From Pleurocapsales cyanobacterium LEGE 10410 (GTDB taxonomy: Bacteria; Cyanobacteriota; Cyanobacteriia; Cyanobacteriales; Xenococcaceae), in contig JADEXJ010000021.1 in assembly GCA_015207195.1 (NCBI GenBank), positions 1 to 54,549 on the forward strand: DNA of 54,549 nucleotides, written 5' to 3'. The notes beneath the pieces are model-generated. The model saw only the letters and a list, made by a program, of their open reading frames with translations, had not been told where the DNA came from and did no database searches. Positions 1,982 through 21,902 of this stretch are shown in pieces (the stretch's first letter is position 1; the number at the start of each line of letters is the position of its first letter). The translations under genes were made by a program, and so were the position numbers.

Positions 1982-2833
1982 AATTGTTCCTCACTATTTA
2001 TGTAATGTTAATTCGACCTAAAATGCCGTTTTACTTTATTTGGTTATCTAACCAATTGAAACTATCATAATTTGTATTTTTTTAGTTTCTAGTAATAAAG
2101 AATACAAAAACTTTAAATAATTTTTTCATATTCCTATCTATCTATTTTGTTCATAGTTTCTTAAATGTCAACATTTCTACTTTATGTAAAAATAGCAGTT
2201 TTTCTAGTTGAAAATACTGAGATAATGCTTGAGACTCAGTATTCGAAGGCTATACGATAATATAAGTAATACTGTTACATATAAAAAAACGAATATGTTT
2301 TCTATATCTCAGCGAATTTTCCGTATTTTTGCAGAGAGCAATACTTTTTAAATAAACATTGCTTTTAAATATAAACTCTTAAACTAAAAACTGTTTTGTG
2401 TTGTTTTTTATATATTAAATACTACCTAAAAAAACACTTTATTTTATAGTTAATTGCGAAGAGTAATAAACTATAGTCTTAAAATAATATTGCCTGGTTT
2501 ATTTATTTTATAAAAGCTTTTCTAGGAGTATTTACTGAAGTAATGCCAAAAACATATTTAAATACTTAAACAGCTCAGTATAAACATTTAGTGGTTTATA
2601 CCGAACAAATTTGTTGCTCAGAATAATTCATTAACCAGCAGCAGAAAAAGAAGAAACAGACAAAGTAGGCGATCGCAAACTTTGCTCGCTTCTAATTTGT
2701 TCGTATGGTTTCTATTTAAAAAGACTATATGTGTAGCATCGAGCTTCCTGTATAGCGTCGCTGATTAAACCCAAATTTCTATTCTTCGATCAAACTCGAT
2801 CGAACTCTTGTAAAGTAACAGAGTCAAAAAATG
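1982..2833. other. AT-rich intergenic region with two hairpins, no gene seen
   Basis: No credible coding frame was found on either strand. It holds two perfect inverted repeats: AATACTGAG/CTCAGTATT at 2213-2243 (9 bp, 13-base loop) and GTATAAAC/GTTTATAC at 2578-2601 (8 bp, 8-base loop). The first lies about 230 bases upstream of the RTX start and could be part of that gene's leader or promoter. The rest is low-complexity AT-rich sequence. Confidence 0.6.
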
Positions 2834-2862
2834 TTGACAAACTTTAACAGCTTGATTATGAT
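2834..2862 (+). promoter_or_regulatory. Near-consensus sigma-70 promoter of a small RNA
   Basis: A perfect -35 box TTGACA (2834-2839) is followed after exactly 17 bases by TATGAT (2857-2862), one base from the -10 consensus. No plus-strand protein gene follows. What follows is a short stretch ending in an intrinsic terminator, so this most likely drives a small RNA. Confidence 0.75.
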
Positions 2863-2868
2863 TGCTGG

Positions 2869-2935
2869 CGTGTGAGGAGGGAACACAATTTAAGAGCCGA
2901 AATGCTTTTGTATTGAGGGATTCGGCTCTTTTTTA
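2869..2935 (+). ncRNA. Candidate small RNA of about 65 nt (Yfr1/Yfr2 size class)
   Basis: The interval starts 6-7 bases after a near-consensus -10 box and ends in a terminator, predicting a transcript of about 65 nt. Its 5' end can form a small hairpin (GUGU/ACAC) exposing a purine loop GAGGAGGGA. The 3' end is a 10-bp stem with a U-run. No open frame with a sensible ribosome-binding site is inside. The downstream neighbour is convergent (the sugar kinase stops at 2953), so this is not a gene leader. Size and two-hairpin layout recall the cyanobacterial Yfr1 and Yfr2/Cyano-1 RNAs, but membership cannot be shown by eye. Its 5' segment GUGUGAGGAGG complements 10 of the 11 bases of the published Yfr1 core. 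Confidence 0.6.
2892..2935 (+). terminator. Intrinsic terminator, plus strand
   Basis: AAGAGCCGAA (2892-2901) pairs perfectly with TTCGGCTCTT (2921-2930) across a 19-base loop, and the T-run continues after the stem. On the minus strand the same hairpin lacks a T-run, so it acts on a plus-strand transcript and not on the convergent sugar-kinase mRNA. Confidence 0.8.
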
Positions 2936-2952
2936 TTTCGATGGCTCAAGAA

Positions 2953-3948
2953 CTAGGCTGCTGTTTTGAGTAAGGCTTCAACTTCTGCGGGAGTAGGTTG
3001 AGCAGCGATCGCGCCAGATTTAGTTGTAGTCAAACCACCCACCGCACAAGCGTATCTCACAATCTCTTGGGCTATTTGGGGATCGGATAATTTTTTGATC
3101 CCGTGCTGGGTTAGTTGATGTATAAAGCCAGCCATAAAAGCATCTCCCGCACCAGTCGTATCTTGAACCGATACTTTTAGTGGGTTGACTTTACCCTCAC
3201 TATCGCTGAGACAGTAGCTTACCTGAGCATCTCCATTACTGACTAAAACCCCTTCTACTGAGCCAAGAAGATGAGAAATGGCTCCCGCATCCGCAGTATC
3301 GAACAACCATTGTGCTTCTTCTTGTGCCAACTTGAGAAAGTCTACATATTGCCAAAGCTGGTTAATTAAGGGGAGGGCTTCGTTTTCATCGAGCCAAAAC
3401 ATCGGTCGCCAATTAACATCTAAAACTATTTTTAAATGGTATTCAACTGCCAATTCTAAAGCGCGAAATACGGCTGCTTTGGCTTGGGGATAAGCTAATT
3501 CTAAAGTTCCTAAAACCAAATACTCTGCGTCTAAGAAGAGTTTTGTCGGCAGCCGAGCTGCCTGAAGATAAGCATCGGCAAATTGACCAGGCTGGCGATC
3601 GCCAAAACCAGCAAAAATGCGATCCCCGCTGGTGGTGCGGGTAACATATACTTCCCTAGTAGGAAATTTTTCACTGTATTGCACTCCAGAAAGATCTACG
3701 CCGATCGTCTTCAGCAGTTGAACTAGTTCTCGACCCTGTTTGTCTTTACCAACACAGCCAATAAAGGCTGAGGGAGTACCCAACTTTGCTAATGCACAGG
3801 CGACGTTAGCAGGTGCGCCACCAGGATAAGAAGTCCAAGACGTAACCTCTGAGACAGACTTGCCTAACTCGTTAGCAAGACAATCAAACAGTATTTCTCC
3901 CAGACAAATAACTTTAGCAGGACGACTGGCGATCGCTTTAGTATTCAA
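2953..3948 (-). CDS. PfkB-family carbohydrate kinase, probably fructokinase
   Basis: A ribokinase/PfkB-fold sugar kinase of 331 residues, the usual length. The N-terminal sugar-binding region carries YPGGAPANVACALAKLG, and the C-terminal PfkB signature DTTGAGDAFMAGF (about 263-275) holds the catalytic base Asp269 and the anion hole. The family transfers the ATP gamma-phosphate to a sugar, and the closest match by motif is ScrK-type fructokinase, which feeds fructose from sucrose breakdown into fructose-6-phosphate. Start is TTG, supported by GAGGGAG just upstream. It is transcribed alone and is convergent with the small RNA. A ribokinase or adenosine-kinase-like substrate cannot be excluded. 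Confidence 0.85.
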   Translation of the reverse strand: MNTKAIASRPAKVICLGEILFDCLANELGKSVSEVTSWTSYPGGAPANVACALAKLGTPSAFIGCVGKDKQGRELVQLLKTIGVDLSGVQYSEKFPTREVYVTRTTSGDRIFAGFGDRQPGQFADAYLQAARLPTKLFLDAEYLVLGTLELAYPQAKAAVFRALELAVEYHLKIVLDVNWRPMFWLDENEALPLINQLWQYVDFLKLAQEEAQWLFDTADAGAISHLLGSVEGVLVSNGDAQVSYCLSDSEGKVNPLKVSVQDTTGAGDAFMAGFIHQLTQHGIKKLSDPQIAQEIVRYACAVGGLTTTKSGAIAAQPTPAEVEALLKTAA

Positions 3949-4091
3949 CTTGCTCCCTCAATGCTTACCATATTTACTAATCTTCAGGGTATCTTTTGCC
4001 AAACACAAGAATATTTAAGAAGATTTATATTTCTTGCTTGCATTACTTCAAGTTACTTTAAGTTTGATAAAGCAACTTCTACTGACATTCT

Positions 4092-20969: not shown

Positions 20970-21902
20970 TTGATTCCAGCAACTCTACATCAACTGAGAG
21001 TATTCGAGACAGTTGCACGTAATGGTAGCTTTACCCGTGCAGCCGAAGAATTGTTGATTACTCAACCAACCGTTTCCAGCCAGGTCAAACAATTAACTAA
21101 AGCTATAGGACTGCCTTTGTTCGAGCAAATTGGTAAAAGCTTATATCTCACTGATGCTGGGGAAGAATTACTAGTCACCTGTCAGGATGTTTTCGAGAAA
21201 TTAAACAACTTTGAGATGAAGGTGGCAGATTTAAAGGGAACTAAACAGGGGCAGTTAAACTTAGCCGTGATTACAACCGCCAAATATTTCGTTCCTAGAC
21301 TGCTTGGTTCTTTTTGCCAACATTATCCAGGTATCGATGTTGCCCTCAAGGTCACTAACCATCAAGAAATTCAGCAGCGGATGCTGGGGAATCAAGACGA
21401 TTTATATATAGTAAGTAATCCCAATCGCGACATAGATTTAACCAGTCAGCCATTTTTAAACAATCCTTTAGTAGTAGTAGCCAGAAAAGATCATCCTCTA
21501 GCCTCAAAGAAAAATATTGACCTAGCAGAATTGAACGACCAGCCTTTTGTGATGAGGGAACAGGGTTCTGGAACAAGGGAAGCTATTCTCGAACTATTTG
21601 ACAAACACGACATCTCAGTGAAAGTCAAGCTAGAGTTAGGTAGTAATGAAGCCATCAAGCAGGCAATTTATGGGGAATTGGGGATATCGATTCTGTCAGA
21701 ACACTGCTTAATTTCCGAAGGTGAATCGGGGTTGACTATTTTAGATTTTCAGCATTTTCCGATCAAACGCCGTTGGTTTGTATCTTATCTAGCAGGGAAG
21801 AAGCTATCGGTAATTGCCCAAACCTTCCTCAATTATCTATTAGAAGAAAGTCCCAAATTGTCTTTTCCACCGTCGAGTATACTGGCTCAGTTGGCTCGAT
21901 AA
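20970..21902 (+). CDS. LysR-type transcriptional regulator, CmpR/CbbR-like
   Basis: A 310-residue LysR protein. The N-terminal winged helix-turn-helix is LHQLRVFETVARNGSFTRAA followed by TQPTVSSQVKQLTKAIGLPL (residues 5-65), and the rest is a periplasmic-binding-like effector domain. The N-terminal wording (LHQ-L-VF-ARxGSFTRAAEEL-TQPTVS-QVKQLTKAIGLPLFEQ) is close to the cyanobacterial CmpR group, which senses carbon status through 2-phosphoglycolate and ribulose-1,5-bisphosphate and activates bicarbonate transporter genes. No such transporter is in the window, so the target is unknown. Start is TTG, with TTGAGGAC about ten bases upstream. Confidence 0.8.
   Translation: MIPATLHQLRVFETVARNGSFTRAAEELLITQPTVSSQVKQLTKAIGLPLFEQIGKSLYLTDAGEELLVTCQDVFEKLNNFEMKVADLKGTKQGQLNLAVITTAKYFVPRLLGSFCQHYPGIDVALKVTNHQEIQQRMLGNQDDLYIVSNPNRDIDLTSQPFLNNPLVVVARKDHPLASKKNIDLAELNDQPFVMREQGSGTREAILELFDKHDISVKVKLELGSNEAIKQAIYGELGISILSEHCLISEGESGLTILDFQHFPIKRRWFVSYLAGKKLSVIAQTFLNYLLEESPKLSFPPSSILAQLAR

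Follow-up and report, generated by a model that had tools for sequence, protein, structure and literature searches.

A diverged third Yfr2 copy without the family's loop motif in a Waterburya-type cyanobacterium

The window, by which we mean the whole stretch of 54,549 nucleotides analysed here, corresponds to contig C145; the genome to which it belongs measures 6.64 Mb and is recognizable as cyanobacterial from its genes for Yfr1 and Yfr2. It carries a compact element on its plus strand (Table 1). A preliminary description of this element had listed a TTGACA-N17-TATGAT promoter, about 65 nt of non-coding sequence and a 10-bp terminator stem with a U-run, all of which can be read directly in the DNA. 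The same description stated that no plus-strand gene follows downstream; indeed, the neighbouring reading frame (2953-3948) runs convergently on the minus strand. We take this neighbour to be a member of the PfkB family and the flanking genes to be RTX-like and TPR genes. Also directly read is GTGTGAGGAGG (also given as GUGUGAGGAGG) at 2870-2880, and the described complementarity of this 5' segment to the Yfr1 core at 10 of 11 bases holds, the reverse complement of ACUCCUCACAC being GUGUGAGGAGU.

Table 1. Features at the locus (positions in the window).
Feature	Position	Strand	Details or basis
Sigma-70 type promoter	2834-2862	+	-35 TTGACA 2834-2839, 17-nt spacer, -10 TATGAT 2857-2862
Yfr2-derived small RNA, putative transcript from about 2868/2870 to 2934	2868-2936	+	Held-out covariance model R1
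Yfr2 motif 1 GUGUGAGGAG plus G mismatch plus GAAC	2870-2884	+	Complements GUUCACUCCUCACAC of the strain's own Yfr1
Small 5' hairpin GUGU/ACAC with GAGGAGGGA in its loop	2870-2886	+	Prediction only
Terminator hairpin, 10-bp stem 2892-2901/2921-2930 plus U-run 2929-2934	2892-2934	+	Sequence reading, folding
Replaced loop AUGCUUUUGUAUUGAGGGA, site of the Yfr2 loop motif in orthologues	2902-2920	+	Alignments
PfkB-family sugar kinase (presumed), convergent neighbour	2953-3948	-	Open reading frame

Judging from the sequence, the transcript would start near 2868-2870 with GUGUGAGGAG and comprise some 65 nt of non-coding RNA. In a scan of positions 2000-4000, its promoter matched the consensus at 11 of 12 positions and ranked first among six promoter-like sites; since shuffled versions of this region yield 5.9 such sites on average, the match alone is no proof of a promoter. 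The stem is a perfect 10-bp pairing of AAGAGCCGAA with TTCGGCTCTT around a 19-nt loop, and the terminator ends in six T, corresponding to six U in the RNA. Our terminator scan omits this hairpin, because it takes only loops of up to 8 nt. The segment 2869-2935 folds at a predicted -21.2 kcal/mol (z -3.4), and none of 200 shuffles folds as well; with shifted boundaries, 2867-2938 gives z -3.1 (2 of 200 shuffles as good) and 2860-2935 gives z -2.0 (7 of 200). According to the list of open reading frames, no plus-strand frame of at least 50 aa overlaps the element, and we therefore rejected its interpretation as an mRNA leader or coding sequence. An ATG at 2902 encodes only MLLY, and one open frame has neither ATG nor GTG.

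The affiliation of the element is not apparent from Rfam, as the window contains no match at gathering level. This includes the Yfr1 model (RF01116), the genome's Yfr1 lying on another contig, C275. In a permissive scan, four matches appeared, all far below their cut-offs, and membership in Yfr1 or another Rfam family was rejected. The preliminary description had proposed a search with the Rfam models. Of these, Cyano-1 (RF01701), which represents the Yfr2 family, reaches only 13.7 bits on the window copy (E 9.5, gathering cut-off 41 bits), and in a genus-wide scan it did not match this copy at E <= 10, while motif 1, GUGUGAGGAG at 2870-2879, is exact in the alignment to the Cyano-1 consensus. 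A different result was obtained with R1, a covariance model that we built from 12 orthologues with the window copy held out. Its top match in the whole own genome is the window copy (50.8 bits, E 6e-9), and the two remaining Yfr2 copies, on C133 (30.5 bits) and C70 (21.5 bits), come next; by Cyano-1, these two other copies score 56.5 bits and 40.2 bits, the latter just below the cut-off. Furthermore, the orthologue in G010 clears the Cyano-1 cut-off (46.1 versus 41 bits). A minus-strand R1 match at 2892-2930 (9.7 bits) fits the palindromic stem, and a weak match at 21545-21591 (11.3 bits, E 0.32) was set aside as chance.

The Yfr2 family includes Yfr2a-c of Synechocystis and Yfr2-5 of Prochlorococcus MED4. 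With this family, the element shares a promoter of its own, the 5' motif GUGUGAGGAG, a later stem-loop, its nature as a stand-alone gene, the occurrence of several copies per genome and the presence of the partner Yfr1. It differs in that it has no GAAACACGGCAAG-type loop motif, a shorter stem and an extra predicted 5' hairpin, and in that it stays below the Rfam cut-off. While the unpaired 5' motif of the family, (U)GUGUGAGGAG, is present, its GUGU is predicted to be paired, with an unpaired probability of 0.04 compared with 0.52-0.89 in the five same-genus orthologues that we folded. The element is a diverged Yfr2 copy, the third in its genome, which has kept the promoter, the putative Yfr1-binding end and the terminator. 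The preliminary description had offered pairing with Yfr1 and membership in the Yfr2/Cyano-1 class as alternatives; pairing is plausible and the relationship to Yfr2 holds, but the two do not exclude each other, since Yfr2 is a known Yfr1-binding RNA. The purine loop, which had been given as the ground for membership, does not serve as such, as GUGUGAGGAG is the unpaired 5' motif of the family and not its loop motif.

The orthologues were collected by two routes. Of 60 genomes searched by BLAST with a block of 146 bp, eight had a match at E <= 0.001, counting the own genome and one match judged to be chance. The latter (L008 in G023, E 1.6e-4) covers 38 bases of the hairpin and lies in what we take, judging a sequence motif by eye, to be a stretch of a gene for a methylguanine methyltransferase; the R1 match of G023 sits on a different contig. 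A pattern search allowing up to one mismatch gave 13 matches in 12 of the 27 family genomes, two of them long-type Yfr2. Together, these searches provided 12 orthologues besides the window copy. The -35 box TTGACA does not vary among the 13 aligned sequences, which include the window copy, and promoter and stem are common to all 12 orthologues, 10 of which have an exact motif 1. In the consensus stem of the orthologues, 6 of 12 pairs show changes on both sides, and 2 of 12 are broken in two sequences each. The window copy has an intact promoter, an intact 10-bp stem and a U-run longer than in several relatives, and shares the 17-base stretch GCGTGTGAGGAGGGAAC with G008 and G007.

Within the genus, the element occurs in 6 of 13 genomes, the window's included. 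The preliminary description had looked to close relatives for conservation of GUGUGAGG and the terminator: the stem is kept in 6/6, the exact motif GUGUGAGGAG in part (4/6). No R1 copy below E 1e-8, the level that we take to mark the short promoter-linked Yfr2 type, was found in 7 of the 13 genus genomes, so that constraint in the genus appears loose. Three of the genomes without a copy in the genus or family are 76-82% complete, and absence there is therefore weak. Across the family, R1 matches 26 of 27 genomes at E <= 1, long-type Yfr2 included, and 15 of 27 below 1e-8. In the order, it matches 346 of 388 genomes at E <= 1e-4, a count that may include long-type copies, because those score at about E 1e-4. 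The pattern TTGACA-N15-18-TANNNT-N4-8-GTGTGAGGAG is found in 120 of the 388 genomes, and the reversed-pattern control gave 0 in every row.

The short promoter-linked type, exemplified by the copies of G010, G013 and Waterburya agarophytonicola KI4, has the same -35 box, motif 1 and stem as the window copy, and in 8 of 12 loci also the same place beside pfkB. Among the 15 family matches taken as this type, the window copy has the lowest R1 score (50.8 versus 68-92 bits), and it alone is without any recognizable loop motif. When the 15 short-type loci were scanned with Cyano-1, one passed the cut-off and nine more scored 27.9-39, while the window copy and four others had no match at E <= 1. As the cut-off thus misses 14 of the 15, Yfr2 is probably undercounted in this family wherever annotation relies on Rfam alone, and the Cyano-1 model could be updated for the short type.

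The commonest syntenic partner of the RNA is the pfkB-like gene, its convergent neighbour in 8 of the 12 loci with an orthologue. In G011, the RTX-like and TPR genes of the window are also present on the far side, and G001 has these two genes on a 14-kb contig that lacks pfkB. In the stretches fetched from G007, G015 and G017, seven window proteins were searched for, and none was found at E 1e-8. Viewed from pfkB, where we read 15 loci and counted the 13 that are the best per genus genome (L184 was left out, and the flank in G004 extends about 105 bases to the contig end), the element lies within 220 bases in four cases and not in the other nine; of these nine, G001 and G007 carry it elsewhere. 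In G006, which is a single contig, the 220 bases past pfkB contain neither promoter nor motif.

Given this arrangement, and with just 22 bases between the end of the stem and the stop codon of pfkB, one might propose that the hairpin is kept mainly as a shared terminator of the small RNA and the convergent gene, and that motif 1 is there by chance. We consider this very unlikely. The alignment of 13 sequences, to which the window copy belongs, shows no variation in the -35 box and an exact motif 1 in 11; read on the pfkB strand, the stem leads into AAAUUGUG and not into a U-run, whereas the long U-run lies on the strand of the small RNA; and pfkB is absent from the fetched stretches at the element loci of G001, G007, G015 and G017. 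More improbable still, to the point of being hardly credible, is an independent gain of a Yfr1-complementary segment by some unrelated small RNA or the leader of an mRNA. The weak Rfam score and a loop unlike that of the inspected Yfr2 copies would agree with such an origin, but it is contradicted by orthology. Against it stand the match to the held-out R1 model (E 6e-9), the promoter and synteny common to the orthologues, and the absence of a downstream reading frame on the plus strand at the element.

What sets the window copy apart is its loop. The excerpted text of PMC2662882 ascribes extreme conservation to two parts of Yfr2 family RNAs, namely the 5' end, which is unpaired, and a loop of about 12 nt in the centre. 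In the window copy, the central loop motif is absent, and the loop reads AUGCUUUUGUAUUGAGGGA. The motif, GAAACNNGG, is present in 30 of 30 loci of the order for whose selection nothing but promoter and 5' motif was used, these being the subset fetched from the matches in 120 genomes. Among the other family copies (n=14), 11 have a GAAACNNGG loop and three, the same-genus copies of G007, G011 and G001, have degenerate loops that match it in part. Both motifs are kept in G010 and G008, G007 combines motif 1 with a changed loop, and in G011 and G001 both motifs are changed. The loci L185-L204, selected by the model, show both motifs in 19 of 19 parsed loci (of 20); as top scorers, they form a biased sample.

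We considered two origins for the new loop. Its reverse complement aligns far better to the loops of nine relatives than the forward strand does, which would suggest an inversion, but shuffled sequences were as good in a fraction of 0.77 (mean score), 0.51 (maximum) or 0.60 (five same-genus loops). Composition thus explains the likeness, and we do not claim an inversion. A loop copied from elsewhere was likewise discarded, as a search of the genome for the 20-mer, allowing up to 3 mismatches, gave no second place other than one on C140 with 3.

The predicted partner of the element is Yfr1 (RF01116), to which it is complementary and not homologous. The own genome has a single Yfr1 match at E <= 1 (59 bits, C275:10109-10169), whose GUUCACUCCUCACAC could pair with the window RNA in 10 bp, one mismatch and 4 bp. 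In this genus, GUUCACUCCUCACACC is identical in all 11 Yfr1 loci printed, G009 being left out and G004 having no Yfr1 match. The binding energy, calculated as cofold minus separate folds and always with the Yfr1 of the own genome (G000), is predicted at -18.4 kcal/mol for the window RNA, a value that none of 200 dinucleotide shuffles attains (mean -6.0). The corresponding energies are -10.5 to -21.5 for five same-genus orthologues, and -22.1 and -22.2 for the other Yfr2 copies of the own genome. This shuffle control is lenient, because eight of eight RNAs beat 200 of 200 shuffles, including those of G011 (-10.5) and G001 (-15.2) with their altered motif 1; when plain duplex energy is used instead, 19 of 200 shuffles do as well as the window RNA. 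The described pairing with the strain's own Yfr1 is energetically favourable in prediction, with a control of limited stringency. As a side observation, the own Yfr2 copy at C70:12586-12666 (L027) contains GUGUGAGGAGUGAAC, a perfect 15-nt Yfr1 complement that extends four bases beyond the 11-base core.

Experimental work on other Yfr2 RNAs suggests what such pairing may achieve. As far as the excerpted text of PMC6778093 shows, Yfr2 is almost universal among cyanobacteria, and Yfr2 of Prochlorococcus MED4 pulls down Yfr1 and Yfr10, is shielded from RNase E when bound and restores the expression of a Yfr1-repressed reporter in Escherichia coli. For Nostoc 7120, the excerpts of PMC6974561 report four genomic repeats of Yfr2 and gel-shift binding of Yfr1. 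In these partial sources, the 5' motif is linked to Yfr1 binding, while a role of the loop motif is merely presumed. The excerpted PMC6778093 also describes that Prochlorococcus Yfr10 presents its own motif in a hairpin loop, like the predicted 5' hairpin here; Yfr10, which carries the Yfr1 motif, stands on the opposite side of the pairing from the window RNA. No loopless Yfr2 appears among the titles of a partial survey of the Yfr1, Yfr2, Cyano-1 and Waterburya literature, which was not aimed at loopless forms.

Given its anatomy, descent and synteny, the presence of Yfr1, the predicted pairing and the absence of the loop motif, all of which come from our analysis, the element is probably a stand-alone gene descended from Yfr2, the third copy in this Waterburya-type cyanobacterium, which has lost the loop motif and serves as a sponge for Yfr1 by means of motif 1 alone. 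Transcription would be driven by its own consensus promoter and stop at the 10-bp terminator; the 5' segment GUGUGAGGAG(G)GAAC of the RNA would pair with GUUC(A)CUCCUCACAC of the strain's own Yfr1, and this pairing would keep Yfr1 off its mRNA targets. Sequestration of Yfr1 by the window copy is proposed by analogy to the Prochlorococcus and Nostoc Yfr2, and we infer that the copy is transcribed, that it is abundant enough to matter and that the replacement of the loop leaves just the Yfr1-binding activity. Since Yfr2 has already been published as a Yfr1-sequestering RNA, a Yfr1 sponge at this place is to be expected and not of a new kind; the window copy is a modest natural variant of known Yfr2.

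The main rival to a sponge that works by motif 1 alone, which we deem the most likely reading, is that the window copy is a redundant third Yfr2 in decay, in which the loop was lost first and whose RNA is perhaps still made with no needed work left, the other two copies (56.5 and 40.2 bits) being sufficient. Seven of the 13 genus genomes, the single-contig G006 among them, yielded no copy below E 1e-8, motif 1 is altered in G011 and G001, and the loops of these two and of G007 are degenerate; such losses in sister species favour early decay. Yet random decay should also touch the parts that are preserved here, namely a promoter with 11 of 12 consensus matches, a GCGTGTGAGGAGGGAAC identical to that of G008 and G007, a perfect stem and a long U-run. 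That promoter, motif 1, stem and U-run are all intact speaks for the motif-1-only sponge, and we regard decay as rather unlikely. More speculatively, the window copy could be a natural separation-of-function Yfr2, which has shed the loop motif and retained only the sponge, while two sister species altered the other motif; the two motifs would then be separable modules with independent jobs, a possibility that we find somewhat doubtful. With its 5' motif preserved and the loop motif missing, the window copy offers a ready natural comparison for the role of the loop.

Outside its Yfr2 and Yfr1 genes, the own genome contains further GTGTGAGGAG sites at C392:48163-48172 (L078) and C59:11040-11049 (L073). 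The former is located some 42 nt upstream of the ATG of an open reading frame that we presume to be tyrosine-recombinase-like, and by their sequence both could be Yfr1 target sites. Lastly, G034, a genome of the same order, has 20 Yfr1-like matches at E <= 1, one of them above the Rfam cut-off, which points to a possible expansion of Yfr1-like elements.
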